A stretch of 45,522 nucleotides of DNA from Rhodanobacteraceae bacterium (GTDB lineage: Bacteria; Pseudomonadota; Gammaproteobacteria; Xanthomonadales; Rhodanobacteraceae). The stretch spans positions 1 to 45,522 of the forward strand of contig JAICJG010000009.1 in assembly GCA_025928585.1 (NCBI GenBank), given 5' to 3'. The position numbers and the translations under genes are program-made. A model generated the notes under the pieces. That model saw nothing but the letters and a program-made list of their open reading frames with translations, had not been told where the DNA came from and ran no database searches. Numbering within the stretch: the first letter of the stretch is position 1; every line of letters begins with the position of its first letter. Below are positions 9,464-25,331 of this stretch, piece by piece.

Positions 9464-10954
9464 ATGACATTCCCGGTTTTCCGACAACGCAGCGGACTCG
9501 CTGTTTTCCTGATTGCCGGTGCCCTTGGCGGCTGCGCCAGCACCGGCGGCCTGCATCCGGAGGCGGCGGCGACGGCGCCGCAGGACCTGCATGCCGAACG
9601 CAGCCTTGCCGGCGTCAAACTCGATGCCGCTGCCTGGCCTGACGAGGACTGGTGGAAGGCCATCGGCGATCCGCAGCTCGACCAGCTAGTCGACGAGGCA
9701 CTGGCAGGCAATCCCGCAATGACGCTCGCCGATGCGCGCGTGCGGGCCGCGCTGGCCGCCGCCGATGCCGCCGATGCGTCCCGCAAGCCGACCCTGAACG
9801 GTGGCGCCAGCATCTCCGGTGCGCGGGTGCCGCCGATCCTGCCGCCGATCGCCAACGGTCATTTCGGCGTCATCAAGTACGGTTACCTCAGCTTCAAGTG
9901 GGACCTCGACCTGTGGGGCGGCAAGCGCGCCGCATGGGAGGCCGCGGTCGGCCAGGCGCGCGCGGACGAGGTCGACAGTCGGGCGGCACGTCTGAAGCTG
10001 TCGGCCGACGTGGTGCAGGCGTACTTCAACCTGGCGGGTGCCTACGCGCAGCGCGATCTCGCGAAGGACGAGTTGCAGCGTGCGCAGGATTTCCTCGAAC
10101 TGACAAAGAAGCGCGTCGCCAGCGGCGTCGACAGCCGCTTCCAGCTGGCGCGGATCGATGGCGAGACCGCCGCCGCGCGGGCGCAGCTCGAAGCGGCCGA
10201 CAATACGGTGCACACCGGCGGGTTGGTGCTTGCTGCGCTGCTCGGCGCGGGTCCGGACCGGGCATTGTCCATCCAGCGCCCGGAACTGCCGGCGGTACCG
10301 GCGCTCGCACTGCCGAGCGATCTTCCCGCCGAACTCCTGGGGCGGCGGCCGGACGTGGTGGCAGCGCGTTGGCGGGTTGAGGCGTCGACGAAGGACATCG
10401 AGGCGGCCAGGGCCCGGTTCCTGCCGAACCTCGGGATCAGCTCGCTGGCCGGCCTGATCGCGCCCTCGGCGATGAACCTGTTCTCGCTGCGCAACCGCTT
10501 CTACACGATCGCGCCGGCCGTGAGCCTGCCGATTTTCGAAGGCGGCGCACTGCGCGCCAATCTTGCCGGCAAGGACGCTGCCCACGACATCGCCGTCGCG
10601 CAATACAACCAGACCCTCGTGCACGCGATCAACCAGGTCGCCGCGCAGGTCGACGACTTGCGTTCGCTGGGCGTGCAGGTCGCGGATGCCGAAACCGCGC
10701 GCCGCAGCGCCGATGCCGCCTACAAGCTCGCGATGCAGCGCTATCGCGCCGGCGTCGGCAACTACCTGGAGGCGCTCAGCGTGCGTCAGGAACTGATCGT
10801 CGCCGAACGGCGACTCGCAACCCTGCAGACGCGCCACAGCGATGCATGGGCGATGCTCAACGAGGCACTCGGCGGCGGATTCCAGCCGGCGGGGGATGGC
10901 CCCTCGCTGGCCGCCAGGCCCGCCACCCGAACCGAACCCAAGGCACATCGATGA
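9464..10954 (+). CDS. Outer-membrane efflux lipoprotein, NodT/OprM family
   Basis: A 496-residue protein. The N-terminus MTFPVFRQRSGLAVFLIAG ends in the lipobox LGGC, with Cys24 as the predicted lipidated residue. Two outer-membrane-efflux repeats follow, with the family's DEDWWKAIGDPQLDQLV near 60, the beta-strand stretch YGYLSFKWDLDLWGGKRAA near 145-165, and the long helix with AQYNQTLVHAINQVAAQVDDL near 385. It should form the trimeric TolC-like exit duct of the pump encoded by the next two genes. It overlaps the adaptor gene by four bases (ATGA at 10951-10954). Length and motifs are normal for the family. Confidence 0.92.
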   Translation: MTFPVFRQRSGLAVFLIAGALGGCASTGGLHPEAAATAPQDLHAERSLAGVKLDAAAWPDEDWWKAIGDPQLDQLVDEALAGNPAMTLADARVRAALAAADAADASRKPTLNGGASISGARVPPILPPIANGHFGVIKYGYLSFKWDLDLWGGKRAAWEAAVGQARADEVDSRAARLKLSADVVQAYFNLAGAYAQRDLAKDELQRAQDFLELTKKRVASGVDSRFQLARIDGETAAARAQLEAADNTVHTGGLVLAALLGAGPDRALSIQRPELPAVPALALPSDLPAELLGRRPDVVAARWRVEASTKDIEAARARFLPNLGISSLAGLIAPSAMNLFSLRNRFYTIAPAVSLPIFEGGALRANLAGKDAAHDIAVAQYNQTLVHAINQVAAQVDDLRSLGVQVADAETARRSADAAYKLAMQRYRAGVGNYLEALSVRQELIVAERRLATLQTRHSDAWAMLNEALGGGFQPAGDGPSLAARPATRTEPKAHR

Positions 10955-12159
10955 CTTCCCCGATCAATCCGAATCCGGTTACCGAAGAAGACGCCGCCAC
11001 CCGGCAGAAGGCCGGGCGCCAGCGCAAGCGCCGCTGGCTGTTGCGCGGCCTGGTGGTCGTAATCGTCATCGTCGCGATCATCTGGGCCATCTACCACTTC
11101 ACGGTCGGGCGCTGGTACGAAAGCACCGATGACGCGTACGTCGACGGCAACGTGGTGCAGATTACCCCGCAGGTGCCGGGCACCGTGATCAGCATCGGCG
11201 CCGAGGACAACGATTACGTCCGCCAGGGACAGACCCTGGTGAAACTTGACCCCGCCAGCGCGGACGTGGCGCTGTCCGAGGCGGAAGCTTCCCTGGCGCA
11301 GGCCGTGCGCAAGGTGCGTGGCCTGTACAGCACGGTGCACAGTTCCAGGGCCGATGTCGCCGCGCGCGAAGCTGCGGTCAAGCAGGCGCGCGCCGACTAC
11401 CAGCGCCGCAAGGGTCTGGCGGCTTCGGGCGCGATTTCCGCCGAGGAACTCGCGCACGCGCGCGACGCGCTGACCACCGCGGAAAGCGCGCTGGCGGCTG
11501 CCCAGGCGCAACTCGCGACCACCAGCGCGCTGGTGTCGGATACCCAGATCGCTTCACACCCCGACGTGAAGGCCGCGGCGGCGAAGGTGCGCGCGGCGTG
11601 GCTCAACGACCGGCGCACGACGATCGTCGCGCCGGTGTCGGGTTACGTCGCCAAGCGCACCGTGCAGGTCGGTCAACGGGTGGAACCCGGAACGCCGCTG
11701 ATGGCGGTGGTGCCGTTGCATCAGGTGTGGGTCGACGCGAATTTCAAGGAAACCCAGTTGCAGGACATGCGGATCGGCCAGCCGGTGACGTTGACCTCGG
11801 ACATCTACGGGGGCGGCGTGACCTACCACGGCCATGTCGCCGGACTCGGCATCGGGACCGGCAGCGCGTTCTCGCTGTTGCCGGCGCAGAATGCATCCGG
11901 TAACTGGATCAAGATCGTGCAGCGTCTTCCGGTGCGGATCACGCTCGACCAGAAGGAACTCGACAAGCACCCGTTGCGGATCGGCCTGTCGATGAGCGCC
12001 GAGGTGAACCTCCACGACCAGTCCGGCCCGATGCTGTCGCAGCAGTCGCCGCAACACCCGGTATTCAGCACCGACGTGTACGCGAACGACACCGCCAAGG
12101 CCGACGCGTTGATTACCAGGATCATCCACGCCAACAGCGGCAAGGTGGAGCGGCATTGA
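10951..12159 (+). CDS. EmrA-like membrane fusion protein (HlyD family)
   Basis: A 402-residue periplasmic adaptor. It has a basic cytoplasmic tail (KAGRQRKRRW), one membrane segment at about 31-52 (GLVVVIVIVAIIWAIYH), then YESTDDAYVDGNVVQITPQVPG at the start of the lipoyl half-motif. An Ala-rich coiled-coil hairpin occupies about 100-200, and the second lipoyl/beta-barrel part contains TIVAPVSGYVAKRTVQVGQRV and WVDANFKETQL. This is the EmrA arrangement. It links the inner-membrane transporter to the outer-membrane factor. The start overlaps the stop of the preceding gene (ATGA), which fixes it. There is a 182-bp gap before the transporter gene. Confidence 0.93.
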   Translation: MTSPINPNPVTEEDAATRQKAGRQRKRRWLLRGLVVVIVIVAIIWAIYHFTVGRWYESTDDAYVDGNVVQITPQVPGTVISIGAEDNDYVRQGQTLVKLDPASADVALSEAEASLAQAVRKVRGLYSTVHSSRADVAAREAAVKQARADYQRRKGLAASGAISAEELAHARDALTTAESALAAAQAQLATTSALVSDTQIASHPDVKAAAAKVRAAWLNDRRTTIVAPVSGYVAKRTVQVGQRVEPGTPLMAVVPLHQVWVDANFKETQLQDMRIGQPVTLTSDIYGGGVTYHGHVAGLGIGTGSAFSLLPAQNASGNWIKIVQRLPVRITLDQKELDKHPLRIGLSMSAEVNLHDQSGPMLSQQSPQHPVFSTDVYANDTAKADALITRIIHANSGKVERH

Positions 12160-12341
12160 TTTGCGATCGTCCAATGACCCCGGCTTCGGGCTCGATGGGC
12201 GTTGGCAGCCCGGAGGCAGGCGCCCAGAGCCGGAATCCGGGAATGTCACCCCGGATTGTTCCATCGGATGGGCTTCGAAGCCATCACGGCAATGGCCTGA
12301 CTTTTTGCGACAGCCGCTCCGTCTGACACCAGAAGGTATCC

Positions 12342-13895
12342 ATGGCATCCAGCGCCACCACGACGGCCGGCAATTTCGGCGAGTTTCGTCCTTCCAGCCT
12401 CCCGCTCGCGACCATCGGACTGTCGCTGGCGACGTTCATGCAGGTGCTGGACATCACGATCGCCAATGTGTCGTTGCCGACCATCGCCGGCAACCTCGGC
12501 GCGAGCCTGACGCAATCGACCTGGGTCATCACCTCGTTCGCGGTTTCGAACGCGATCGCGCTGCCGCTGACCGGATTCCTGTCGCGGCGCTTCGGCGAGG
12601 TGAAGCTGTTCGTGTGGGCGACCGCGCTGTTCTCGCTGTGCTCGCTGCTGTGCGGGCTTGCGACCAGCATGGACATGCTGGTGTTGTTCCGGATCTTGCA
12701 GGGCGCGGTTGCAGGTCCGATGTACCCGATCACCCAAAGCCTCCTGGTTTCGATCTACCCGCGCGAGAAGCGCGGCATGGCGCTGGCGATCCTCGGCATG
12801 GTCACGGTCGTCGCGCCGATCGCGGGGCCGGTGCTCGGCGGCTGGATCACCGAGACCTACTCGTGGGAATGGATCTTCTTCATCAACGTGCCGATCGGGA
12901 TATTCGCGAGCTCGGTGGTCGCGGCCCAGCTCGGCAAGCGGGTGGAACAGTTGCGCAAGGCGCGGGTCGACTGGGTCGGGCTCGTGACCCTGGTGCTCGG
13001 GGTCGGCTCGCTGCAGGTTCTGCTCGACAAGGGCAACGAGCTCGACTGGTTCCATTCGACCTTCATCGTGTCGCTCGCGATCATCTCCGCCATCTCTCTG
13101 GTGGTTTTCCTGGTCTGGGAACTGACCGACGAGGAACCGATCGTGGACCTGCGGTTGTTCCGGCACCGCAACTTCGCGGCCGGCACCCTGGCGCTGGTGC
13201 TCGCCTACGCGGCGTTCTTCTCCATCGGCCTGCTGGTGCCGCTGTGGCTGCAGAACACCCTCGGCTACACCTCGATCTGGGCGGGCCTCGCCACCGCGCC
13301 GATCGGCGTGATCCCGGTGCTGCTGACCTTCTGGGTGGGCAAGTACGCCACCCGCTTCGACCTGCGCTGGCTGACCGCGTTCGCGTTCATCGTGATGGGC
13401 GTCACCTGCTTCATGCGCGGGCGCTTCAACGTTGATGTCGACTTCTACCACGTCGCGCTGGCGCAACTGATCCAGGGGCTCGGCGTCGCGCTGTTCTTCA
13501 TGCCGATCCTGACCATCCTGCTGTCGGACCTCGAAGGTCCGGAAGTGGCCGAGGGCTCGGGACTCGCGACGTTCCTCCGCGCCGTCGGCGGCAGTTTCTC
13601 GGCCTCGATCACCACCTACATCTGGACCCGCGGCGGCGTGGTGAACCACGCCAACCTCGGCGAGCACATCAGCCTGTACGAATCCCGGGTCCGCAACGCG
13701 GTGGCCGCAACCGGCGGACACCTGCAGACCTATGCCGCGGAAATGAACCGGATGATTACCCAGCAGGCCATGCAGATCTCGTTCAACCATCTGTTCGATG
13801 CGCTGGGATTCATCTTCCTCGGACTCGTTGCCGTGGTGTGGCTGGCCAAGCCGCCGTTCATCAAGCGCGGCGGTCCGGCGGCTGGCGGGCACTGA
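12342..13895 (+). CDS. EmrB-like multidrug transporter (MFS, DHA2 family, 14 TM)
   Basis: A 517-residue transporter with about 14 hydrophobic helices. The DHA2 signature is visible as FMQVLDITIANVSLPTIAG in the first helix, STWVITSFAVSNAI in the second, and the A-loop and motif C regions RILQGAVAGPM and VTVVAPIAGPVLGGWI. Such pumps export hydrophobic compounds using the proton gradient, together with an EmrA adaptor and a TolC-like duct. A Shine-Dalgarno-like AGAAGG lies 5-6 nt before the ATG. The 182 bp between adaptor and transporter contain no gene I can recognise. Downstream, no T-rich terminator was seen. The substrate range cannot be read from sequence. Confidence 0.93.
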   Translation: MASSATTTAGNFGEFRPSSLPLATIGLSLATFMQVLDITIANVSLPTIAGNLGASLTQSTWVITSFAVSNAIALPLTGFLSRRFGEVKLFVWATALFSLCSLLCGLATSMDMLVLFRILQGAVAGPMYPITQSLLVSIYPREKRGMALAILGMVTVVAPIAGPVLGGWITETYSWEWIFFINVPIGIFASSVVAAQLGKRVEQLRKARVDWVGLVTLVLGVGSLQVLLDKGNELDWFHSTFIVSLAIISAISLVVFLVWELTDEEPIVDLRLFRHRNFAAGTLALVLAYAAFFSIGLLVPLWLQNTLGYTSIWAGLATAPIGVIPVLLTFWVGKYATRFDLRWLTAFAFIVMGVTCFMRGRFNVDVDFYHVALAQLIQGLGVALFFMPILTILLSDLEGPEVAEGSGLATFLRAVGGSFSASITTYIWTRGGVVNHANLGEHISLYESRVRNAVAATGGHLQTYAAEMNRMITQQAMQISFNHLFDALGFIFLGLVAVVWLAKPPFIKRGGPAAGGH

Positions 13896-14138: not shown

Positions 14139-15818
14139 CTAGTGCGCTTGCCGGGAGACCAGGCGCGTGATCTCGGCTGACAATTGCTGCTGGGTAAATG
14201 GCTTGGCAATCCGTGGAAGTTCGATGGGCTGCACGCCCTTCAGCTCGGCGTATCCCGTCGCCAGCAGGATCGGCAGCTTCGGATGCTGCTTGCGCAGGGC
14301 GACGGCGAGATCCATGCCGGTCATGCCCGGCATGGCGTAATCGGTAACCACGATGTCGGGGGCAAGGCCATCCTGCATCATGACCAGCGCCTCCTGGCCG
14401 GAGTGCGCCTCGGCGACCCGATGGCCCAGGTCTTCCAGCAGCGCAGCCGTGCTGTTGGCAATCAGCGCATCGTCGTCCACCAGCAGTACCGTGGCGGGCA
14501 CTGCCGCAGCTTCGATTGGCGCGGGCGGCGCCGCGGGCGCCGGTGCTCTCTCGACCGCAGGCAACCAGAGGTCCACACGCGTGCCCTGGCCCACGCTGCT
14601 GTGCAGCTGGAACCCGCCGCCGGATTGCTCGGCGAGCCCATGGACCATCGAAAGGCCCAATCCCGTGCCCTTGCCGGCGCCCTTGGTCGAGAAGAACGGC
14701 TCGATGGCGCGGGCCAGCGTGGCCGCATCCATTCCGATTCCCGTGTCCTGCACGGAAAGCCGCACGTATGCGCCGGGTTGCAGATCCGGTTGCTGCGCGG
14801 TCGCCATGCAGCGCTCCATCGCGATCGTCAGGGTGCCTCCGCCGGGCATGGCGTCGCGGGCATTGACGGCCAGGTTCAGCAGCGCCATTTCCAACTGGTT
14901 GGGATCGATGTTGACGCTGGGCAAGGGCCCTCCGGCACGGATTTCAACCTTGATCAGCGGTCCGACCGAGCGGTCGATCAGGTCCTGCATGTCCTGGACG
15001 AGGACCTGGATGTCGGTTGCGCGTGACTGCAACTCCTGCTTGCGGGCGAAGGCCAGCAGCCGCTGCGTCAGGGTGGCGCCCCGTCGCGCACCTTCCATCG
15101 CGCCATGCAGCAGCCTCGCCTGGCGCGGATCCTCGTTATTGATTTTTCTGGCCAGCAATTCCAGGTTGCCGATGACCGCCATGAGCAGGTTGTTGAAATC
15201 GTGTGCGACACCGCCCACGAGTTGCCCCATGGTTTCCAGTTTCTGCGCCTGCATCAGAGCCGCCTGCGCGCGTTCCCGGCGCCTGCTTTCCTCGCGCAGC
15301 TGTTCATTGGCCTGTTGCAGCGCCCGCGTGCGTTGCGCGACCAGACGCTCCAGGTTCTCAGCCGCGTGGCGCTGCGCCTCGAGATAGGTGCGGGTCTCGT
15401 ATTGCCGGGCTCGGCCGCGCTTGGCCGACAGCACCGCGGCCTGCAGCGAGATCGCCTGCATCGGCCGTTCGAGAAACGAGACGTTGCGCAGCTTGCTGAC
15501 GATCCGGCGGCGGAACTCGGTGAATTGCGGCCGGTCGTTCTGGGTGGTCATGATGATGAAGGGAAAATCCGACCAGGGGGGTTGGGCATCCACCCACGTG
15601 GTCAGTGGAGCCATGGATTCTCCGTACAGTGCCTCCTCGGCAACCAGCGCGAGGTCGCCGCCTCGGTCAAGATGCACGAGGAGCTCGTGGACGTTGCCGC
15701 AGACACGTGAATCGAGGCCGGCTTGTTCCACCAGCTTCGTGCAAGCGGCGGCGTCCCGGCCGATCGGCGCGAGGATAAGAACACCGGTTTCAGGCACGTC
15801 AGTTTGCCTGGCTGCCAT
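14139..15818 (-). CDS. Hybrid histidine kinase with degenerate N-terminal receiver, paired with KaiC homologue
   Basis: A 559-residue soluble protein without membrane segments. Residues 10-135 resemble a receiver domain, but the usual phospho-aspartate position reads ALVAEEAL, so it is probably a pseudo-receiver. A coiled coil follows (about 140-195). The kinase core has the H-box with His206 in VAHDFNNLL, the N-box LNLAVNARDAMP, G1 DTGIGM, F-box EPFFSTKG and G2 GKGTGLGLSMVHG. A C-terminal true receiver begins at 442 (VLLVDDD), with Asp493 in VTDYAMPG and Lys539. The start overlaps the 3' end of the kaiC-like gene by 20 bp, so the pair is translationally linked. Output by phosphotransfer to another protein is likely, since no DNA-binding domain is present. 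Confidence 0.9.
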   Translation of the reverse strand: MAARQTDVPETGVLILAPIGRDAAACTKLVEQAGLDSRVCGNVHELLVHLDRGGDLALVAEEALYGESMAPLTTWVDAQPPWSDFPFIIMTTQNDRPQFTEFRRRIVSKLRNVSFLERPMQAISLQAAVLSAKRGRARQYETRTYLEAQRHAAENLERLVAQRTRALQQANEQLREESRRRERAQAALMQAQKLETMGQLVGGVAHDFNNLLMAVIGNLELLARKINNEDPRQARLLHGAMEGARRGATLTQRLLAFARKQELQSRATDIQVLVQDMQDLIDRSVGPLIKVEIRAGGPLPSVNIDPNQLEMALLNLAVNARDAMPGGGTLTIAMERCMATAQQPDLQPGAYVRLSVQDTGIGMDAATLARAIEPFFSTKGAGKGTGLGLSMVHGLAEQSGGGFQLHSSVGQGTRVDLWLPAVERAPAPAAPPAPIEAAAVPATVLLVDDDALIANSTAALLEDLGHRVAEAHSGQEALVMMQDGLAPDIVVTDYAMPGMTGMDLAVALRKQHPKLPILLATGYAELKGVQPIELPRIAKPFTQQQLSAEITRLVSRQAH

Positions 15819-17325
15819 CTACCGGCAGCAACGGAGCCTTCTCGCCCGTGTAGAGGGGCGTCCCGGCAAGTATCCCGGTGAAACCGTTCAGCGGCGGGCC
15901 GACGCGGACCCCGCCGTAGCTCAGCCGGAATTCGCGGATCGCGTGTTCGTGTTCGCCGCTGCGCTTCTTCACGACCGAGAGCGCGCGGCGCACCGAGCCG
16001 TCGTATTCGAAGTAGCGCAGCATCAGCACGGCATCACTGAGATAGCTGATGTCCAGCGGCGTCTCCATGGGACCCACCAGCCCGTGCTGCGCGAGCACGA
16101 GTATCGTCAGTACGCCGAGTTGGCTGAGGTAACTTAGCAGCTCGTGCATTTGCAGGACGAGGAAGCGCTCGTCCGGCATCGAGTTGAGATAGCCATTCAG
16201 GCTGTCGATGATGATGATCCGCGCCTGGTCTTGTTCCACCGCCGCGCGGACCCGGTGCGCGAATTCCCCGGGCGACAATTCCGCGGGGTCGATCTGCTGG
16301 AGACTGATCCGACCCTTCTCCATCACCTCCTCGAGTGGCAGACCCAGCGCCTCGGCACGCGCCCTCATGGTGCCCTGGCCTTCATCGAAGGAGAACACTG
16401 CCGTGTTTTCGCCTCGCTGCGCCGCCGCGATCGCGTAAGTCATGGCAATGGATGACTTGCCCACGCCGGCCGCCCCGATCAGCAGCGCGTTGGTGCCCCG
16501 TTCCAGACCGCCGCCGAGGATCTGGTCCAGTTCGGCGTTGCCGCTGAGAACGAAATCACCCTCGAAATCCTTGTGGTGTTCTGCCGCCACCAGCCGAGGG
16601 TAGATCGCCAACCCGCCGCGTTCGATGGTGAAATCGTGAAAGCCGCCCTTGAAAGGGATTCCCCGCATCTTCACCACCCGGAGGCGCCGGCGTTCCGCGC
16701 CGTAGTCGATGGCCAACTGTTCGAGCAGCACCACCCCATGCGCGATGGAGTGGAGCTGCAGATCCTTCTCATGCGCGGTCAGGTCATCGAGCAGGATCAC
16801 GGTGCACTTGCGGCTCGAAAAGAAGTGCTTCAACGCAAGTACCTGGCGCCGATAGCGCAGGGGGCTCTGCGCCAGCAGCCGAAGTTCAGACAGGCTGTCG
16901 ATCACGACCCGCGCAGGATTGATCTCTTCGACCTTCGCGAAAATGAGCCGGCTGGTCTCCCCGAGTTCCATCTCGGCCGGCTGCAGGATCGTGAGTTCCT
17001 GGCTGGGATCGAGGGTGGTTTCCGGAGGGACCAGTTCGAAAACGGTGATTCCATGCAGGGACCATCCGTGCCGGTGGGCGACCAGCTCCAGTTCGCGCAT
17101 GGTTTCGGAAAGCGCGATGTAGAGCACGGATTCGCCCCGGCGCACGCCCTCGAGGAGGAATTGCAGCGCCAGGGTCGTCTTGCCCGTCCCGGGCCGTCCT
17201 TCATACAGGTACATGCGATGGGGATCGATCCCGCCGCCGAGGATTTCATCGAGTCCTGTGCTGCCGGTGGAAATCCTGGCTGGTTCGACGCCCTGGTTCG
17301 GCAGGTTATCGTCGTGCTCGCTCAT
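15799..17325 (-). CDS. KaiC-like double-domain ATPase
   Basis: A 508-residue protein with two RecA/KaiC domains. Domain I has the P-loop GRPGTGKT (43-50) and Walker B RVVIDSLSEL. Domain II has GAAGVGKS (284-291) and IIIIDSLNGYL. The catalytic acidic pair is Ser73-Glu74 in domain I and Asp314-Glu315 in domain II, where cyanobacterial KaiC has Glu-Glu in both. Around the phosphorylation loop, ETPLDISYLSD aligns with the KaiC segment holding Thr426, Ser431 and Thr432. Here these are Thr422, Ser427 and Tyr428. The start at 17325 follows GAAGGAA at a suitable distance. No kaiA or kaiB gene is nearby. The downstream partner is a hybrid kinase. A timing or stress-signalling role is inference; the ATPase fold is firm. 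Confidence 0.92.
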   Translation of the reverse strand: MSEHDDNLPNQGVEPARISTGSTGLDEILGGGIDPHRMYLYEGRPGTGKTTLALQFLLEGVRRGESVLYIALSETMRELELVAHRHGWSLHGITVFELVPPETTLDPSQELTILQPAEMELGETSRLIFAKVEEINPARVVIDSLSELRLLAQSPLRYRRQVLALKHFFSSRKCTVILLDDLTAHEKDLQLHSIAHGVVLLEQLAIDYGAERRRLRVVKMRGIPFKGGFHDFTIERGGLAIYPRLVAAEHHKDFEGDFVLSGNAELDQILGGGLERGTNALLIGAAGVGKSSIAMTYAIAAAQRGENTAVFSFDEGQGTMRARAEALGLPLEEVMEKGRISLQQIDPAELSPGEFAHRVRAAVEQDQARIIIIDSLNGYLNSMPDERFLVLQMHELLSYLSQLGVLTILVLAQHGLVGPMETPLDISYLSDAVLMLRYFEYDGSVRRALSVVKKRSGEHEHAIREFRLSYGGVRVGPPLNGFTGILAGTPLYTGEKAPLLPVDGSQAN

Positions 17326-17349
17326 TGTCGTTCCTTCGATTCGGAAGCC

Positions 17350-18450: not shown

Positions 18451-19335
18451 CTACCGCCGCATGAAGCGGCGACGCGCCACGGACAGGAGCAGGCGTTGCA
18501 ACGGGTTGTTGTTGCCGCCGGGCCGCCAGGTGTGCACGAGCTTGTTGCGGTAGGCGTCGAAGTGCAGGCCATGGGGTGCCGCGTACACCTTGCCCCTGCC
18601 GAGCAGGATCTTCAACGCCTGGGTGCCCGCGATCCCGGCGCAGATTTCGCAGGCCATGGGCGTGGATGGCCCCCGGTGGTTGGCGAGGTCCACCGCCGAC
18701 GGATCCACCAGATAGGACTGGTGCAGCACGGCCGGTGCCAAGCCGACCATGAAGCGCAGCAACTGCTCGTTCATCGGCTGGCCTTCCAGCCGGAAATACT
18801 CTTCGAAGGTCGTCTGGCCCGGCAGGAACGCCAGCACCGCAGCGCCCATGCCCAACGGTGCCGCGGTAATGGCCGGAATGCCGCGTTCCGCGCACATGGC
18901 GAACACCTTGGCGCGGATATCCAGCACGAAAAAGTCCAGGCCGTCGACGTACAGATCCACCCCTGACAGGAACTGCTCGATGTTGTCGAAGTTGACGCCG
19001 CCGGGAAACTTGTTGATGTCGAGGTCCGGATTGATGTCCCGCGCCATCCGCGCTACCACGTCGACCTTGGGTTGGCCGATGGTCGACTGGAACGCACCGG
19101 CCTGCCGGTTGAGGTTTTCAATTCCGAAACGGTCGAGATCCGCGAGGTTGAACTGCTGGATGCCGAGCCGGGTCAGGGTCAACAGATGGGCGCCGCCGAC
19201 CCCGCCGAGGCCTGCGATTGCCACTCGCTTGGAACGGAGCGTCGGCTGCTCGGTCGCGGTCATCCAGCCGATCGTCCGGCTGAATGCCGTTGCGTAGTCG
19301 AACGGCTCGGTCTGGACCGGTGGATCGGTCATCAT
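18451..19335 (-). CDS. ThiF/MoeB/HesA-family adenylyltransferase (E1-like)
   Basis: A 294-residue E1-like enzyme. The ATP-binding loop GLGGVGG is at 42-48, the adenylation motif DLDRFGIENLNRQ at 66-78, and the helix GQPKVDVVARMARDINPDL follows. Only one Cys-x2-Cys pair is seen (Cys229 and Cys232, ACEICAGIAG), whereas MoeB/ThiF zinc sites need two, so zinc binding is uncertain. No C-terminal rhodanese domain is present. Members adenylate a C-terminal carboxylate or carry out ATP-dependent dehydration. Nothing near encodes a ubiquitin-like carrier. Two ATGs stand in tandem; GGAG lies upstream of both, and 19335 is used. The neighbourhood (PEP-CTERM proteins, nitroreductase-like, FeeM-like) suggests a specialised pathway rather than thiamine or molybdopterin synthesis. 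Confidence 0.87.
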   Translation of the reverse strand: MMTDPPVQTEPFDYATAFSRTIGWMTATEQPTLRSKRVAIAGLGGVGGAHLLTLTRLGIQQFNLADLDRFGIENLNRQAGAFQSTIGQPKVDVVARMARDINPDLDINKFPGGVNFDNIEQFLSGVDLYVDGLDFFVLDIRAKVFAMCAERGIPAITAAPLGMGAAVLAFLPGQTTFEEYFRLEGQPMNEQLLRFMVGLAPAVLHQSYLVDPSAVDLANHRGPSTPMACEICAGIAGTQALKILLGRGKVYAAPHGLHFDAYRNKLVHTWRPGGNNNPLQRLLLSVARRRFMRR

Positions 19336-19555
19336 GGGAATACTCCGCGCGGAAGTACTGGATGCGGCCTGACCGGCACGGTAACACCGGCTCGCGGCGG
19401 ATTCCATGCGGCGTCACACATCCGCAGGGGAGCAGCACCCTTCGCGTAGGCCGGCTCGAGGAGCAAAGCGACGGAGCTGGCGCGCTGGGCCATCGCCCGG
19501 CAGGCCGGCACCTTCCCCAAAATCCAGGTCGCATTCCCTGGACTGGGGCGAAGAA

Positions 19556-19589
19556 CCAAAAAAAAGGCGCCGCTTCGAAAAGCGGCGCC
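19556..19589 (-). terminator. Intrinsic terminator of PEP-CTERM gene 1
   Basis: Read on the minus strand, GGCGCCGCTT, loop TTCG, AAGCGGCGCC forms a perfect 10-bp stem followed by eight T. It lies 34 bp after the stop codon at 19623 and separates this gene from the thiF-like gene. Confidence 0.93.
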
Positions 19590-19622
19590 ATGAATCGAGG
19601 AATCGCAAGCTTCGGCGAAGGC

Positions 19623-20441
19623 TTATGCCTGGCCTTCGAATTCCTTGCGGCGGCGCCAGAAGAAGAAACCCACTGCGCCGAGACCGAGGCCCAACAGGCC
19701 GAGTTCCGTCGGCTCCGGAACCGGCACGGGCAGCATCGTGTTGCCGGTCAACGAGCCATTGCCCTCGATGGGATAATGGCAGATGTCGTTCGGATCCGAC
19801 GTAACGGAAGAGCACGTGCTGGCCGGCTGCTCCTGGAATGACGAACTGAGGCTGAAATCCGCCCACCCACCGATACCATCGGTAACGCTGTTGGAGTTGA
19901 GCCAAGGCATTGCCGGACCGCCCGTTGCATCCGCCAAGCCGAACCCGCCGGAGCCAAGCGTGGGATCGCTGATGGTGCCGTTGACCGTGGCGTAAAGTTG
20001 CCCGTTCGGATCCACAAAGCCGGTACGAGGGGCGGTATGGCCGGTCAGGGTGACCCACGGCGTACCGTTGACGGACGTGGGATCGGCTTGGTTGTAGGTA
20101 TTGGCGCCCTGGACGTAAAACTGGAAGCTGCCGTCGTTAAATACGACTTGGTTGCCCGTAATGCTGGATACCGTATAACTGAACGTAAAGGTCAGATCGC
20201 AACCCGAGCAGAAATCGTTGTCGCCGTTGATCGAGCCGATCTGCCCGTAGCCGGTCAGCACGTCGCCGACGGCGGAAACGGACGACTCGCGCAGGTTCAA
20301 CGACTGGATGGTCAGGTCAAACGGGCTGCTGCTATCCCAGTGGACTCCGTCCACGTTGATTGGCGTCGCCAGCGCAGCACCACTCGCGCCCAGCGCCAAG
20401 GCGCATACGAGTGCAGCTCCAATACTTTTCTTGTTCAACAT
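19623..20441 (-). CDS. PEP-CTERM sorting domain secreted protein, paralogue 1
   Basis: A 272-residue exported protein. The signal peptide MLNKKSIGAALVCALALGA ends near ALA. A beta-rich body follows with paired cysteines (DFCSGCDLTF, STCSSV..DICHYP) and repeated Gly/Asn/Ser stretches. The tail is a classic PEP-CTERM signal: VPVPEP at 239-244, a hydrophobic segment GLLGLGLGAVGFFFW and the basic RRRKEF. Exosortase would cut near this site and move the protein to the cell surface or matrix. About two thirds of residues match paralogue 2 by eye. The ATG at 20441 follows GAGGAG and lies downstream of the sigma-54 promoter; a longer upstream frame would overlap that promoter and is rejected. The function of the mature domain is unknown. 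Confidence 0.9.
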   Translation of the reverse strand: MLNKKSIGAALVCALALGASGAALATPINVDGVHWDSSSPFDLTIQSLNLRESSVSAVGDVLTGYGQIGSINGDNDFCSGCDLTFTFSYTVSSITGNQVVFNDGSFQFYVQGANTYNQADPTSVNGTPWVTLTGHTAPRTGFVDPNGQLYATVNGTISDPTLGSGGFGLADATGGPAMPWLNSNSVTDGIGGWADFSLSSSFQEQPASTCSSVTSDPNDICHYPIEGNGSLTGNTMLPVPVPEPTELGLLGLGLGAVGFFFWRRRKEFEGQA

Positions 20442-20524
20442 GCTTTGTCTCCTCGAGAGTGATTCCATTCGGACAACCGGTAAGGCGTTGAAATGCCGAG
20501 CGACCTTGCCCGGATGGACAAGAG

Positions 20525-20540
20525 GCAAGAAGCGTGCCAA
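20525..20540 (-). promoter_or_regulatory. Sigma-54 promoter of PEP-CTERM gene 1
   Basis: On the minus strand TTGGCACGCTTCTTGC matches the -24/-12 consensus TGGCACG-N4-TTGC at every conserved position, with GG and GC exactly 10 bp apart. Transcription would start near 20513, giving a leader of about 70 nt before the ATG at 20441. Confidence 0.92.
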
Positions 20541-20602
20541 GTACATAACTTATTGTTTACAAAAGATGGTTTTGGGATACGGGCCCCTGTTTCCCGAGCT
20601 TG

Positions 20603-20619
20603 TGTAAAGTATTTCGACG
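20603..20619. promoter_or_regulatory. Candidate activator site, PEP-CTERM gene 1 (proximal)
   Basis: TGTAAAGTATTTCGACG begins 63 bp upstream of the sigma-54 -24 element. It is an imperfect dyad (TGTAAA against CGTCGA). The same pattern is found at 20739-20755 and, with three changes, at exactly 63 bp from the second PEP-CTERM promoter. This is a likely upstream activator sequence for a sigma-54 enhancer-binding protein; the protein is not encoded here. Confidence 0.7.
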
Positions 20620-20738
20620 GGCGATTGCCATGGCTGCGGGATCGCTCCCCCGTCCGCCGTGGGCGGCGCGCCCACGGAAGCTCTCGTTCCGGCAACTGTT
20701 TGATGCTTAGAACTCTTTGGCGGGACGTGCAAGGTTTT

Positions 20739-20755
20739 TGTAAAGAAGCTCGACG
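20739..20755. promoter_or_regulatory. Candidate activator site, PEP-CTERM gene 1 (distal)
   Basis: TGTAAAGAAGCTCGACG shares TGTAAAG-N4-TCGACG with the proximal site and lies about 200 bp upstream of the -24 element, within the usual range of enhancer sites. The following bases (CAGCACGG) resemble those after the site upstream of paralogue 2, pointing to a duplicated upstream region. Confidence 0.6.
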
Positions 20756-21087
20756 CAGCACGGAAACCGACTGGATTCGTCTACGCGGGCACCACCGCGG
20801 CGGCCGCGGAGTCATGGCCCGGCCAGCGAGATCGGCTCGATTGCCTGGGAAATCGTCGAAGCTTGCGCTATCGGGTGTCCGCTGCGGCCGTGCCGCACGC
20901 GGGGGCGATTCACCAGGTTTCCATCTTGCGCAACCGGCTCCAGCGCTCGCGGATCTAGTCCGGGACAGGTTCGTTCACGCCAGCAACCCGCCCGTTCGCT
21001 CCCGATACGGGTGCTCGGCGGCGTCCAGGCTGCGGTTGGAACGCGCAATGCCAGGGCCCTTGAAGGAAGGCTCGAAGACAGCCCATG

Positions 21088-21120
21088 AAAAGATGGCGCC
21101 GCTCCGGGAGGCGGCGCCAT
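21088..21120 (-). terminator. Intrinsic terminator of PEP-CTERM gene 2
   Basis: On the minus strand ATGGCGCCGC and GCGGCGCCAT pair over 10 bp with an 8-nt loop, followed by CTTTT. It lies 48 bp after the stop codon at 21168. The stem core GGCGCCGC is the same as in the terminator of paralogue 1, consistent with tandem duplication of the whole unit. Confidence 0.82.
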
Positions 21121-21167
21121 TGGACTTCAAGTCACTATCTGAGGTGCGGCCCCAGTCTTGCCGATCG

Positions 21168-21971
21168 TCAGGCTGCTTTGCGGCGACGCTGGATCAGGAA
21201 TCCGAGAAAGCCGAGGCCGAGGCCCATCAGGCCGAGCTCGGCCGGCTCCGGTACCACCGTCGCGCCGATCAACGAACCGTTGCCCTCGATCGGGAAGTGG
21301 CAAACGCTGCCCGAGTCGGGCGAAATGGAAGTACAGGTGCTGGCCGGCTTCGTCAGGAACGACGAATTCAAGCTGAAGTCTGCAAAACCGCCGATACCGT
21401 CGGAGATGGTATTGGAGTTGAGGTAGGCCGCTGCCGGACCACCCAGCACGTCCACGAGGCCGATCCCGTCAGAGCCGCTGGTCGGGTTGCTGACGGTGCC
21501 ATTGACGGTTCCGTAGAGTTGCCCCACCGTGATGAAGCTGGGGTCAGCGCTCGGAGCGGTATGGCCGGCCATGGTGACCCACGGCGTACCCAGGGTGGCC
21601 GAGTTGGGATTGGCCTGGCTGTACGATCCGGCAGGGGAGACGTAGAACTGGAAGCTCCCGTCGTCGAACGTCACGTGGTTGGCGCTGATGCCCGTCACCG
21701 TGTAGGCGAAGGTGAAGGTGAGATCGCAACCCGTGCAGAAACTGTTGATCCCGTTGATCGAGCCGATCTGGCCGTAGCCGGTCAGCACGTCACCCACGGC
21801 GGATACCGACGATTCACGCAGGTTGAGTGTCTGGATGGTCAGGTCGAATGGGCTGGCGCTATCCCAATGGACGCCGTCCACGTTGATGGTCGTTGCAAGC
21901 GCCGCACCGCTGGAAGCACCCAGCGCGATGGCACATGCGAGTGCGGTTCCAATGCCTTTTTTCGTCAACAT
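21168..21971 (-). CDS. PEP-CTERM sorting domain secreted protein, paralogue 2
   Basis: A 267-residue exported protein, the paralogue of the gene downstream. The signal peptide MLTKKGIGTALACAIALGA is followed by TTINVDGVHWDS, nearly identical to paralogue 1. Shared blocks include LRESSVSAVGDVLTGYGQIG, the Cys pair FCTGCDLTF, and HFPIEGNGSL near the end. The C-terminus has VVPEP (239-243), the hydrophobic segment LGLMGLGLGFLGFLIQ and RRRKAA, an exosortase recognition signal. GGAGGG sits just upstream of the ATG at 21971; an alternative start at 22070 is excluded because it would lie beyond the promoter. Surface display or release is inferred from the sorting signal. The linker between the Ser-rich body and VPEP is four residues shorter than in paralogue 1. 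Confidence 0.9.
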   Translation of the reverse strand: MLTKKGIGTALACAIALGASSGAALATTINVDGVHWDSASPFDLTIQTLNLRESSVSAVGDVLTGYGQIGSINGINSFCTGCDLTFTFAYTVTGISANHVTFDDGSFQFYVSPAGSYSQANPNSATLGTPWVTMAGHTAPSADPSFITVGQLYGTVNGTVSNPTSGSDGIGLVDVLGGPAAAYLNSNTISDGIGGFADFSLNSSFLTKPASTCTSISPDSGSVCHFPIEGNGSLIGATVVPEPAELGLMGLGLGFLGFLIQRRRKAA

Positions 21972-22048
21972 ACTCGTTCCCTCCTTTGCTGAGTTGAAAA
22001 TCAACTCGAACCATGGAACGAAAAGTTGTCGCTGACGCTTTAGACTGA

Positions 22049-22064
22049 GCAAGTAGCGTGCCAA
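22049..22064 (-). promoter_or_regulatory. Sigma-54 promoter of PEP-CTERM gene 2
   Basis: On the minus strand TTGGCACGCTACTTGC has the -24 and -12 elements with GG and GC 10 bp apart, differing from the gene 1 promoter by one spacer base. Transcription would begin near 22037, about 66 nt before the ATG at 21971. Confidence 0.92.
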
Positions 22065-22126
22065 GCACAAAAACCGTTGTTTGCGCGAGGGTTTTTATCC
22101 TGCGGTCCCACGGGTGCCGCACGTTC

Positions 22127-22143
22127 CGTAAGGAGCTTCGACA
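22127..22143. promoter_or_regulatory. Candidate activator site, PEP-CTERM gene 2
   Basis: CGTAAGGAGCTTCGACA matches TGTAAAG-N4-TCGACG with three changes and starts 63 bp from the -24 element, the same distance as the proximal site of gene 1. As an imperfect dyad its reverse complement begins TGTCGA. Confidence 0.6.
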
Positions 22144-22445
22144 CAGCACCGAACCCGTCGTCGATGATGCGGGTCCGGCTGCTGCGTTGCCTCGCAAAGC
22201 GTTGCATTTCAGTAGGTTATGCTTTCGACGGACCGCTGTTCGAGCGTCGCCGCCAACCGCTGCTGCGCGGCGGGAAGATGCACTAACCGCATGTTCCAGT
22301 GCGGATTGTTCGGCAAGTCCTGCTTGAGTTGCAGGTGTAAAGGATTCCGATAGCGGCATCCATGTTGGTCGCGTCCGGGATGCGAAATCGCCGGGATCGC
22401 GGGAGCCGCCTGCCTGCCTCCAAGGAAGTGGAGCGTATCGGAGCG

Positions 22446-23720
22446 CTATTCGAAGTCGCCGAAACTGGCGAGTGGGCGCCGCCCGCTGCGGCGGCGTGGT
22501 GCGGAGCGCGCACGGCCGAGCCGCAGGAACACCATTCCATGTCCCGGCCCGCACAGGTCGGCGAGCGCTGAAGCCACCCGCGAGACCGTCCGTTGGAAGG
22601 CCGGCTCTACCGGCACGAAGCCGAGGCCGAGAACCCCCGGCGCCGCATAGGGTTGCACCGAAAGTCCTGCCAGGGTGGCCTGAAGCCATACGCGCTGCAG
22701 GGCACGGCCGCCCGCGAGCACGTCGGCTCGGGTCCGGGACGGAATGACGATCAGGCAGAGACCCGGTGACATCCGGATGGGGAGCCACGCTGAGCGCCAT
22801 CCCAGCAGCGGTGCCGCACCCAGCCGGTTGAACGTCGCCATCACCGCCGGGCGGCGCATTGCCTGGAACACCGGGCGCAATGGTGGTTCCACGGCCAGCG
22901 CCGCGGGAGCCAGGCTTTCCTCGCAGGTGCCGCGCCAGCCGGCGGAAAAACGGATGCTCGAAAACAGTTCCGCATGGAGCGCCGGGCTCTTGAACCGCAG
23001 GGTTTCGGCCTGCCTAATGACGTTCAGCGCGGCCTTTCTTTCGCGCGATGTCGCCGGCCACCAGAGCTGCTGCCCGGAAATCCGCTGCGCCTGCGCCTCC
23101 AGGAGTGCCCGCGTTTCGGCGCTGACAGGGCCGCGCCACGGGAAGCGGCGGTCGGTATGGCGTTGCTCGATGGCTCCAGCGAGTGGTTCGGATCTGTCGG
23201 AATCGGGCTCGCGGCGCCAACCGATGCGGGCGACGCACAGCTCGTCGTCTGATGACGGGAACCATTGCAGGCCGGCCACGTAACCCAGCGACCGGCCCCG
23301 GATGACCATGTTTTCAATGCACGCGCCGGCAGCCAGGTCGCTGAGGACATATCGGGTATCCGATACCCGGCCGCTGCGATCCGCGTCGATGCGAACGTCC
23401 AGTGCGTCGCCGGACCACGCAAATCGCCAGGGCTGCGAATTGTCTGCCGAGGGCGCGGCGATGCCCGCGCACAGGATGGCTGTTTTCGTATCCGGGTCCA
23501 AAGCCGCGTCCCTCCGCATGCGACGGTCCGGACTATACGCGGGGACCCAGGCATGCACCATTGGCCGGCGCGCGATGGCCGCACGGGTTTCCGCGGATGA
23601 AGAACTCCGGAGCACCACCCCGTGGCGACGCGTGCCCGTGCGAGCCCGGATCCACTGTAGCGCGATGGTCCCCGCAGCAGCATCGAACAGTGTTCGAGTG
23701 CGATCGCCCGCAGTCGCCAC
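22446..23720 (-). CDS. Nitroreductase-fold protein (Rv1355c-like nitroreductase domain)
   Basis: Up to 424 residues, start uncertain. The nitroreductase FMN-binding signature AAPSADNSQPWRF is at 88-100 of the longest frame, and a second typical block, DLAAGACIENMVIRGRSLGY, is near 129-148. The stretch AIEQRHTDRRFPWRGPVS is the RxxxR region usual in this family. Homologous domains are fused to a ThiF domain in mycobacterial Rv1355c, and a separate ThiF-like protein is encoded 3 kb away here. The first 67 residues look poorly conserved; the ATG at 23519 (MRRDAALDPDTKTAIL) is a credible alternative, although neither start has a good Shine-Dalgarno. The C-terminus is Arg-rich and may be disordered. 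Whether it reduces anything is unknown. Confidence 0.72.
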   Translation of the reverse strand: MATAGDRTRTLFDAAAGTIALQWIRARTGTRRHGVVLRSSSSAETRAAIARRPMVHAWVPAYSPDRRMRRDAALDPDTKTAILCAGIAAPSADNSQPWRFAWSGDALDVRIDADRSGRVSDTRYVLSDLAAGACIENMVIRGRSLGYVAGLQWFPSSDDELCVARIGWRREPDSDRSEPLAGAIEQRHTDRRFPWRGPVSAETRALLEAQAQRISGQQLWWPATSRERKAALNVIRQAETLRFKSPALHAELFSSIRFSAGWRGTCEESLAPAALAVEPPLRPVFQAMRRPAVMATFNRLGAAPLLGWRSAWLPIRMSPGLCLIVIPSRTRADVLAGGRALQRVWLQATLAGLSVQPYAAPGVLGLGFVPVEPAFQRTVSRVASALADLCGPGHGMVFLRLGRARSAPRRRSGRRPLASFGDFE

Positions 23721-24506
23721 GCCTGTTCAGGCTCCGATGACGATGCGCAGATTGCCGACAGTGGACGCGTCAAGCGCGACGTCGATCACAGGCTTCGGCA
23801 AAGTTTTTTGCAATTGCATGTATTTGGTACGTCGTTCACACAATCAGCCTGCATGAATTACACGCATCTAGCATATATTTCACACACTCGTCCCATGCCC
23901 GTTACAAAATGCAACAAAGGGAGCGGCATCCAGATCGGAACTGACTGGTCGTCTGCGGACGGCCAAGGGGATGGATGTGTCTCTTATGGTGCCCCTAGCC
24001 AGGTTTCGTCGTCCCGTGAAAGTTTCCGACAGCTCGCAAACCTGGTTACGGCGAAGGATCGCAGCGCATCGCGGTGGGGATCAACCGCGAAAGCAGGGCG
24101 GCCAAATGGAACCGGCGATCGAAATAACAGCAGGCCGTGGCGAAGTCGCGTCCCGCATGATCGCCCCGTTTGACCGTGCAATAGCGCCCCCGACCTACGC
24201 CCACCATGAACGCCTGTTCTCCCGGCGTTCCGCAACCGGTCCAGCAGCCGTTGCCCTGGCCCCCGCGGCCAGTCCCACCAAGCTGCCCGAGACCAACCCA
24301 ACAACGCGAGGCTTCGCACCCGGCCAGGGCCTGCACCTGTTTGTGCTCGCCAGGCCACGCCGCCGTGCGGGTCGCGTTTCGATGACGCGTCCATTGCAGC
24401 CCGGCACGACCGTTCCGGTCGATGCCGGCCATGCGGGACCAACGTCGCTATCGCCAACGGAATGGCATGTCGTGCAACAACGTGCCGCGGGTCGGCGGGG
24501 TGAATC
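23721..24506. other. Long spacer with AT-rich patch between divergent nitroreductase-like and FeeM-like genes
   Basis: About 786 bp. The stretch near 23790-23910 is AT-rich and contains the 10-bp palindrome TGCAATTGCA (23809-23818), a place where divergent promoters could sit. A GG-N11-GC element (23797-23811) resembles a sigma-54 site but has the wrong spacing. A plus-strand frame from 23971 (or 24106) to 24510 ends in an ATGA overlap with the FeeM-like gene. Its protein (Arg/Pro/Ala-rich) matches nothing I know, so I do not call it firmly. Confidence 0.5.
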
Positions 24507-24510
24507 ATGA
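23971..24510 (+). CDS. Doubtful hypothetical protein upstream of FeeM-like gene
   Basis: A possible 179-residue product (or about 134 residues from the ATG at 24106). It is rich in Arg, Pro and Ala, with no domain, signal peptide or membrane segment recognised. The only positive sign is the ATGA overlap with the next gene at 24507-24510. Codon third positions are less GC-biased than in neighbouring genes, which argues against coding. The tail LSPTEWHVVQQRAAGR faintly resembles the beginning of a LuxR-type helix-turn-helix, but it stops after about 20 residues. It could be a decayed gene or pure chance. Confidence 0.2.
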   Translation: MDVSLMVPLARFRRPVKVSDSSQTWLRRRIAAHRGGDQPRKQGGQMEPAIEITAGRGEVASRMIAPFDRAIAPPTYAHHERLFSRRSATGPAAVALAPAASPTKLPETNPTTRGFAPGQGLHLFVLARPRRRAGRVSMTRPLQPGTTVPVDAGHAGPTSLSPTEWHVVQQRAAGRRGES

Positions 24511-25331
24511 ATGCAACCGGATCGGTAAAAATGCCTGAAACAGTCGTCATCGACATCACCGCGCGCCGCGCGCGCTCGGCGGTGCGAAGCAGTGAATCGC
24601 CGTGCGTGTGCGCGACCAGCGTGGAACAAGTGGAATCAGCGTGGAGATTGGTATACGACCGCTATTCACAAATGGGATTGATCGACGAGAACCCGTTCGG
24701 CATCCATGCCGTTCCGACTGCCGTGGGGCAGCACGCGTGCGTGATTTGGGGTCCGGAAGGGCCGGAAGTCGGCTACACGATGACGCTGTTCCGCGACAAT
24801 CCAATGGGCCTGGCGCTGGACAGCGTCTATGGCCCCCATCTGGATGAAATGCGACGCAAGGGGCGCCGCCTGCTCGAGGTGGGAATGCTGGCGGATCGTC
24901 GCCGGTGTGCTTCGCGCGGCATCCAAGCCCTTTTCAGCATGATGCGCTGGGCCGTGCACTACGCTTTGCACAACGAGTTGACCGACATCATCATCGGCGT
25001 GCATCCGCGCCACGCCCAGTTTTATGTGCGCTGTTATGGTTTCGAGGAATTCGCGGAGCCGACTAGTTATCCGCTGGTGCGGAACCATCCAGTGGTGCCC
25101 TTGCGCCTGCGCCTCCGCGAGAGGCTGGCGGAAGACGGGTTGCCGCGGGGGCTCGCCGATGCGCGAAACAACCCGGTACCCGCAAGTGCATTCGCGCATC
25201 GCTTCGAGTTCAGGCCGGAGCAATTGCGTGGCTCGTTGATCGCGGGATTCTTGAAGGCCCGCTACTGCATCGACCTGGTCCGCCAGGTGCGTCCCGGTCG
25301 GGCCGGCTACGAGCTCGCCTGGTCGGCCTAG
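24507..25331 (+). CDS. FeeM-like N-acyl amino acid synthase / exosortase-associated acyltransferase
   Basis: A 274-residue GNAT-fold protein. Typical blocks are SAWRLVYDRYSQMGLIDENPFG near 44-65, the core strand LLEVGMLADRR (122-132), RGIQALFSMMRWAVHYA, and GVHPRHAQFYVRCYGFEEF with His169, Phe172, Tyr173 and Arg175 forming the HxxFYxR pattern. FeeM enzymes join an acyl-ACP to an amino acid to give N-acyl amino acids. A subfamily is annotated as PEP-CTERM/exosortase system-associated, which fits the two PEP-CTERM genes 2.5-5 kb away. GGCGGGG lies upstream of the ATG at 24507. There is no signal peptide, so it acts in the cytoplasm. The exact acyl donor and acceptor are unknown; autoinducer-synthase-like activity is an alternative. 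Confidence 0.8.
   Translation: MNATGSVKMPETVVIDITARRARSAVRSSESPCVCATSVEQVESAWRLVYDRYSQMGLIDENPFGIHAVPTAVGQHACVIWGPEGPEVGYTMTLFRDNPMGLALDSVYGPHLDEMRRKGRRLLEVGMLADRRRCASRGIQALFSMMRWAVHYALHNELTDIIIGVHPRHAQFYVRCYGFEEFAEPTSYPLVRNHPVVPLRLRLRERLAEDGLPRGLADARNNPVPASAFAHRFEFRPEQLRGSLIAGFLKARYCIDLVRQVRPGRAGYELAWSA

Follow-up and report, generated by a model that had tools for sequence, protein, structure and literature searches.

A ThiF, oxidase and FeeM-type synthase module tied to PEP-CTERM genes in a Rhodanobacteraceae bacterium, probably a pathway to N-acyl oxazolones

What do a ThiF-type protein, a nitroreductase-fold protein and a FeeM-type protein make together, and why are they encoded around genes for PEP-CTERM proteins? 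We addressed this question for positions 18451..25331 of a 45,522-nucleotide (nt) stretch of contig JAICJG010000009.1 from a Rhodanobacteraceae bacterium (assembly GCA_025928585.1). This whole stretch is hereafter called the window. Our answer, to which we give a probability of roughly 80%, is that the three enzymes form a pathway to an N-acyl oxazolone or to the 2,3-dehydro N-acyl amino acid that its hydrolysis yields, in a branch tied to PEP-CTERM and exosortase and with a biofilm or exopolysaccharide role. Family membership, residue conservation, module conservation and linkage were observed, and from these we infer the substrates, product and role.

The FeeM-type synthase would transfer an acyl chain, from acyl-ACP (acyl carrier protein) or acyl-CoA (coenzyme A), to the amine of a (probably aromatic) amino acid. 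The ThiF-type protein would then adenylate the carboxylate with ATP (adenosine triphosphate), and the amide oxygen would close a five-membered oxazolone ring, while the flavin oxidase of nitroreductase fold would desaturate the alpha-beta bond with O2. The product would most likely have its role in biofilm or exopolysaccharide physiology, be it as signal, surfactant or envelope lipid. The five genes concerned are, from low to high coordinate:

18451..19335, minus strand: ThiF-type adenylyltransferase and putative cyclase (PRK08223, 436.1 bits); the open reading frame (ORF) is open to 19407, with a likely start at 19335 (MMTDPP)
19623..20441, minus strand: PEP-CTERM protein a (PF07589), translated from the ATG at 20441
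21168..21971, minus strand: PEP-CTERM protein b (PF07589), translated from the ATG at 21971
22446..23519, minus strand: nitroreductase-fold flavin-dependent oxidase, desaturase-like (Rv1355c model, 2YMV); the ORF is open to 23720, and the start at 23519 was chosen
24507..25331, plus strand: FeeM-type N-acyl amino acid synthase (PF21926, 2G0B, N-terminal part of PRK14852), divergent from the oxidase gene

All five are ORFs at these coordinates, and family scans agreed with each assignment made in a preliminary description of the locus, which had grouped them. The synthase matched the Pfam FeeM family PF21926 with 125.1 bits (cut-off 27) and, in a sequence search of solved structures, FeeM itself (2G0B, E=1.8e-6). 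The FeeM-type part of its earlier label, FeeM/exosortase-associated N-acyltransferase, was thus borne out; TIGR03694, the model of the exosortase-system acyltransferase (cut-off 111.95), gave no match at E-values up to 0.1. PEP-CTERM proteins a and b matched PF07589, the family with a PEP motif, a hydrophobic stretch and a basic end at the C terminus, with 24.3 and 22.3 bits, both over the cut-off of 20.7, and are paralogues, as proposed, with 70% identity to each other. They scored 22.0 and 40.1 bits against the PepA flocculation protein model (NF033554), below its cut-off of 80.

The nitroreductase-fold identity of the oxidase was supported by PF00881 (29.7 bits, cut-off 23.5, in a match that spans 33 residues only), by the Rv1355c family model (149.1 bits, under the whole-fusion cut-off of 476) and by the Acg nitroreductase 2YMV (E=1.5e-6 in the search of solved structures). 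PRK14851 gave 115.4 bits, under its whole-protein cut-off. Among 23 aligned oxidase sequences (alignment A1), APSxDNxQPW, R120, R124, N231, R272, R276 and W278 were invariant. The window oxidase was 25-33% identical to the oxidases of 12 of 13 more distant ThiF loci and 52% identical to that of Sedimenticola, while the ThiF proteins of these loci were 61-71% identical to the window ThiF. The Sedimenticola match, set against the ThiF identities, may reflect an exchange of oxidase genes between lineages, which we regard as possible.

The PRK08223 (NF006077) score of the window ThiF lies well over the cut-off of 266, PF00899 was matched with 143.7 bits, and the protein contains exactly one CxxC motif, so that its description as an E1-like adenylyltransferase with one CxxC holds. 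Numbered from the codon at 19341 as residue 1, R22, GxGGVGG (44-50), D70, N76, R79, K92, D133 and D136 are common to the window ThiF and E. coli ThiF and are kept in all 84 family rows. We take these residues, with the glycine-rich loop, to be the ATP site of E. coli ThiF. A molybdopterin or thiamine role was considered and rejected, as the MoeB and ThiF models scored far below their cut-offs; with its one CxxC the window protein also differs from MoeB and ThiF proper, of which two CxxC zinc pairs are the hallmark. A RiPP or azole-type system was a further reading considered.

A clear E1 fold and PEP-CTERM genes inside the module would also suit an E1-like activator of a carrier or ubiquitin-like protein, with the oxidase and FeeM-type protein helping to modify PEP-CTERM surface proteins. 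The cysteines speak against this. Exactly one CxxC was present in 81 of the 84 family rows and none in the other 3, compared with two in E. coli ThiF, and the window protein has only three Cys in total (150, 231, 234). None of them stands at the position of the catalytic Cys of E. coli ThiF, presumably Cys184. In addition, no carrier-protein gene was noticed among the ORFs of at least 80 aa (smaller ORFs were not searched), and homologous trios act on small molecules. We therefore consider a carrier-protein E1 very improbable, and the earlier suggestion that the enzymes act on surface proteins found no evidence. The single CxxC and the three Cys make a small-molecule cyclase appear the better explanation.

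The preliminary description had proposed a shared pathway from proximity, and this is supported by two kinds of evidence, protein fusions and recurrent adjacency. The three window enzymes align with successive parts of the 989-residue NCBIfam model PRK14852 (synthase 35-205, ThiF 313-589, oxidase 578-796). As separate proteins they reach partial scores of 58.5, 251.6 and 67.8 bits, below the cut-off of 1337 that marks the triple fusion (NF011425). A full PRK14852 protein of 989 aa (2396.7 bits) is encoded by Nitratidesulfovibrio plasmid pDVUL01 (NC_008741.1; L166:11062-14031), flanked on one side by genes annotated as XrtA-system and on the other by three PEP-CTERM genes. Genes annotated as a sigma-54 regulator and an ABC (ATP-binding cassette) exporter were seen near it. 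A tblastn search of plasmids gave 28 records, all with less than 60% identity. The suggestion that the window ThiF and oxidase are a split form of the pair fused in Rv1355c also stands, as the oxidase matches that family and its mycobacterial member TrzS is a ThiF-oxidase fusion. In TrzS, D217 is reported to be required for cyclisation (PMC12856293); D133 or D136 would be its likely equivalent in the window ThiF.

Adjacency was clearest among close relatives, a set of 13 distinct loci (L045, L046, L048-L058) whose ThiF is 86-90% identical to that of the window. The order oxidase, PEP-CTERM, ThiF was found in all 13, and a divergent FeeM-type synthase in 11. The contig of L048 breaks off 1.1 kb upstream of its oxidase and that of L054 1.7 kb upstream; the genome of L054 carries a FeeM gene on another contig, 12 kb from an exosortase. 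Of ten window genes flanking the module, none recurred in the flanks retrieved, which reach up to 9 kb, except for a 28% KaiC-like match in L048. Considering that the flanking genes are not kept while the module is, positions 18451..25331 delimit a real unit, and because the same order recurs in 13 of 13 distinct loci, the grouping is not due to chance.

For a wider view we used 80 named loci, which are the best-kept of 186 ThiF relatives and therefore biased to this branch. Together with two others and the window they make 83 (L044 and L047, copies of L052 and L054, were left out; L081 and L082, the same DNA over the compared stretch, were counted twice). Of these loci, 73 have an oxidase-like ORF, which forms a single ORF with ThiF in 23 cases, and 48 have a FeeM-like ORF. 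For linkage counts, 50 genomes were picked from the 80 loci for spread. PF21926 matches occurred anywhere in the genome in 48 of them, over the cut-off in 44.

In these 50 genomes, a PEP-CTERM motif lay within 4 kb of ThiF in 31, compared with 1.24 expected from genome-wide density. Outside the close relatives of the window the count was 24 of 43, compared with 1.20 expected. The expectation was taken from genome-wide Pfam counts and nearness from a custom pattern, which was positive in 57 of the 83 loci; Pfam confirmed 55 of these 57. An exosortase was present in 47 of the 50 genomes.

Exosortase linkage was also counted in two draws of genomes not chosen by ThiF, with E-value cut-offs of 1e-40 for ThiF and 1e-15 for exosortase. 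The ThiF and exosortase draws were taken as the same genomes, since the listed handles agree, with non-matching genomes not all listed. In the phylum draw, 16 of 398 proteobacterial genomes had this ThiF. Exosortase was found in 13 of these 16 and in 64 of the 382 ThiF-negative genomes (Fisher 7.5e-8, a p-value that overstates independence because 9 of the 16 belong to one family, f14). ThiF and exosortase were within 50 kb of each other in 9 of the 13, 373 kb apart in one and on separate contigs in three. In the order draw, 5 of 299 genomes had exosortase, namely 3 of the 4 ThiF-positive and 2 of the 295 others, and in two of the three genomes with both, the genes were 35-36 kb apart. A genus-mate of the window, G011, has both the module and an exosortase. 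A published Rubrivivax gene table likewise places UBA/THIF genes inside a PEP-CTERM exopolysaccharide region (PMC3684757).

These counts answer the co-occurrence check that had been set for the locus, repeated occurrence of all three enzymes with PEP-CTERM genes and exosortase, in part: ThiF is linked to both, and the three enzymes are not always all present. The cluster belongs to a PRK08223-type ThiF branch with a genomic tie to the exopolysaccharide system of PEP-CTERM and exosortase. The link of synthase to exosortase was in print by 2011 (Craig, Cherry and Brady), and its extension to ThiF, and less regularly to the oxidase, is statistically strong. As far as we have seen, this extension is little noted in the literature; spelling variants such as PEP_exosortase and THIF-type (PMC3684757) escape a term search, and we make no claim that it is absent from print. 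Among the papers searched, one names both exosortase and ThiF (PMC7962754). A paper containing the terms exosortase and oxazolone together (PMC8776678) concerns methanobactin-like clusters and is unrelated.

Could the product then serve the exosortase step itself, so that PEP-CTERM proteins or exopolysaccharide would be anchored by an N-acyl amino acid or reactive oxazolone as acceptor or acyl donor? Two loci (L157:4199-11277 and L158:3892-10877) contain a one-strand run of synthase, ThiF, PrsT, exosortase and a PEP-CTERM gene, their synthases matching TIGR03694 with 258.4 and 262.1 bits. FeeM-type genes also lie about 10 kb from an exosortase in five Janthinobacterium/Duganella-type genomes (G348, G350, G362, G363, G366), and tryptazolones are reported to be opened by acid and by alcohols (PMC12856293). 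Yet exosortase can do without this ThiF, which only 13 of the 77 exosortase-positive genomes of the phylum draw have, and there is no direct evidence of lipid-modified PEP-CTERM proteins. We regard a role in the exosortase step as unlikely. More doubtful still is a version that makes the oxazolone the chemical arm of exosortase sorting: the ring-activated N-acyl amino acid, produced beside the sorting genes, would acylate PEP-CTERM proteins or exopolysaccharide and anchor them to the cell surface or floc matrix. If true, this would give a reason for the joint occurrence of synthase, cyclase and exosortase. L157 and L158 have no oxidase among their listed ORFs and present a two-enzyme form beside exosortase.

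Several observations weigh against an oxazolone pathway tied to PEP-CTERM and exosortase. No FeeM-like ORF was found in 35 of the 83 ThiF loci. Of the phylum-draw loci, 15 besides the window were read, and an oxidase-like ORF was found in only 6 (weakest 55 bits; a divergent oxidase could be missed). A FeeM-like ORF was found in all 15, some of the matches being weak (lowest 55 bits). Synthase and ThiF therefore seem to form the core, with an optional oxidase, unless divergent oxidases escape the model. Among the 50 genomes, 19 had no PEP-CTERM motif within 4 kb of ThiF and 2 no PEP-CTERM match at all. In the phylum draw, 64 of the 77 exosortase-positive genomes were without this ThiF, and two genomes (G478, G709) have the ThiF and no exosortase match. 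Three genus-mates of the window (G001, G009, G012) have an exosortase and no ThiF over the cut-off. The assignment of this branch to oxazolones is a prediction. In print, no oxazolone was observed in the producers described in PMC12479983, whose authors call the role of ThiF enigmatic.

Exosortase in the window organism is a further such point. The window was earlier noted to contain none, and its fragmented assembly (183 contigs) gave 0 matches as well. The same assembly encodes PrsR, the PEP-CTERM response regulator (658.6 bits, cut-off 502.6), and has ten PEP-CTERM matches. One of its contigs (C134, 8948 bases, read as L146) carries PrsR and PEP-CTERM motifs with no exosortase match. Given this contig, the data are compatible with a missing exosortase that lies in an assembly gap.

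How, then, are enzymes and PEP-CTERM genes regulated? The PEP-CTERM genes are bracketed by the following elements:

20524..20539, minus strand: sigma-54 type promoter motif TGGCACGCTTCTTGCC, 82 nt before the ATG of PEP-CTERM a; score 20.2 of 21.2
19566..19589, minus strand: terminator-like hairpin, 10 pairs, 8 T, 34 nt after PEP-CTERM a
22048..22063, minus strand: sigma-54 type promoter motif TGGCACGCTACTTGCT, 76 nt before the ATG of PEP-CTERM b; score 21.2 of 21.2
21093..21120, minus strand: terminator-like hairpin, 10 pairs, 48 nt after PEP-CTERM b

The site of PEP-CTERM b was the best in the window and that of PEP-CTERM a the second, tied with a site at 33880. Such near-consensus sites are as described for single-gene PEP-CTERM operons (Haft 2006, PMC1569441), a description that does not extend to the hairpins. 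Each gene has its hairpin 34-48 nt past the stop; with 4 terminator-like hairpins in the region compared with a mean of 6.7 in shuffles, their number is not above chance. Sigma-54 sites with a score of at least 19.7 preceded 35 of 71 PEP-CTERM genes, 0 of 83 ThiF genes, 1 of 50 oxidase genes, 3 of 48 FeeM genes and 6 of 400 control ORFs. These per-gene counts reject a single sigma-54 promoter for enzymes and PEP-CTERM genes. Promoter-level regulation in common was not seen, which again counts against a joint role; enzymes and PEP-CTERM genes share a place in the genome, not a promoter. We also observed a 22-nt element (18 of 22 identical) upstream of both PEP-CTERM genes, at -96 relative to the sigma-54 site of gene b and at -232 relative to that of gene a, which is possibly a PrsR-binding box.

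Separate transcription units, bracketed PEP-CTERM genes and enzymes without sigma-54 enrichment are what accidental neighbours without a shared pathway would look like. Opposed to this are the gene order found in all 13 related loci, the natural fusions of the domains and the linkage statistics. Since a conserved module and fusion proteins contradict mere accident, we allow it scarcely any probability, and a three-enzyme pathway to N-acyl oxazolones or their hydrolysed form is the explanation that we retain.

Beside the module, window positions 14139-17340 encode a KaiC-family ATPase, matched over two stretches, and a histidine kinase with a receiver domain. Apart from the one 28% match, these neighbours are not kept beside the module in related loci. 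About 5 kb from the module, positions 9464-13895 encode outer-membrane factor, membrane-fusion and MFS (major facilitator superfamily) genes, which by reading only resemble an efflux operon of EmrAB-TolC type. A DevABC-type exporter was considered as a general ThiF neighbour, as suggested by loci of Methylomonas (L095), Nitratidesulfovibrio (L166) and, by annotation, Bdellovibrio (L167). This was rejected, because a DevC-like permease lay no further than 9 kb from ThiF at 2 of 99 loci, an HlyD-like adaptor at 3 and an ABC ATPase at 14 (the Bdellovibrio locus lies outside the 99).

The link reported in 2011 raised the question of why bacteria with exosortase encode N-acyl amino acid synthases. 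In Methylomonas LW13, disruption of the exosortase-linked synthase is reported to weaken a polysaccharide band, and complementation restores it (PMC11072679). The same report states that the mutant also fails to grow in the gradient system, so that the effect is not specific to polysaccharide. If the linked ThiF and oxidase give oxazolones or dehydro-amino-acid lipids, the product would be sensitive to acid and alcohols and destroyed by ordinary extraction, which is directly testable in floc- and biofilm-forming proteobacteria. PRK08223, PRK14851 and PRK14852, named "hypothetical protein" in NCBIfam, would also gain a predicted function.

The locus had been put forward as a candidate undescribed system, which is not supported, since the chemistry is published as N-acyl oxazolone biosynthesis. 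According to PMC10404671 and PMC12856293, OxzAB, TyzABC and TrzAS attach an acyl group to an aromatic amino acid, after which ThiF closes the ring with ATP and a flavin oxidase desaturates the product with O2. OxzAB of Pseudoalteromonas rubra has, like the window, an N-acyltransferase, a ThiF and a nitroreductase-superfamily oxidase; OxzB is described as a fusion, whereas the ThiF and oxidase of the window are separate, with two PEP-CTERM genes between them (PMC12856293, PMC10404671). TyzABC of Mycobacterium tuberculosis is closer in form, with three separate proteins (acyltransferase, ThiF cyclase and flavin-dependent oxidase) and the acyltransferase gene on the opposite strand. The neighbours described for it are cysK1, cysE and mmpL9, with no PEP-CTERM genes among them, unlike the window (PMC10404671). 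TrzAS (Rv1356c/Rv1355c) shares with the window the oxidase family, and its TrzS is described as acting on acyl-tryptophan as a single fused protein, compared with separate proteins here (PMC12856293).

The same trio is reported in producers of thalassotalic, kyonggic and stieleriacine compounds (PMC12479983). The stieleriacine cluster of Stieleria maiorica resembles the window in its N-acyl amino acid synthase, ThiF, nitroreductase and PEP-CTERM gene. It differs in its methyltransferase genes, of which there are none among the five genes of the window, and such clusters come from other genera or phyla (PMC7293339). As in the exosortase-linked N-acyl amino acid synthases (Craig 2011; TIGR03694), the window synthase lies near genes of the PEP-CTERM/exosortase system; it matches Pfam FeeM and not TIGR03694, and the window adds ThiF and the oxidase to that link. 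The PRK14852 fusion on pDVUL01 of Nitratidesulfovibrio vulgaris has the same three domains near PEP-CTERM genes, in one protein and with an XrtA locus beside it. The window module is thus probably a well-conserved instance of already known biosynthetic chemistry.

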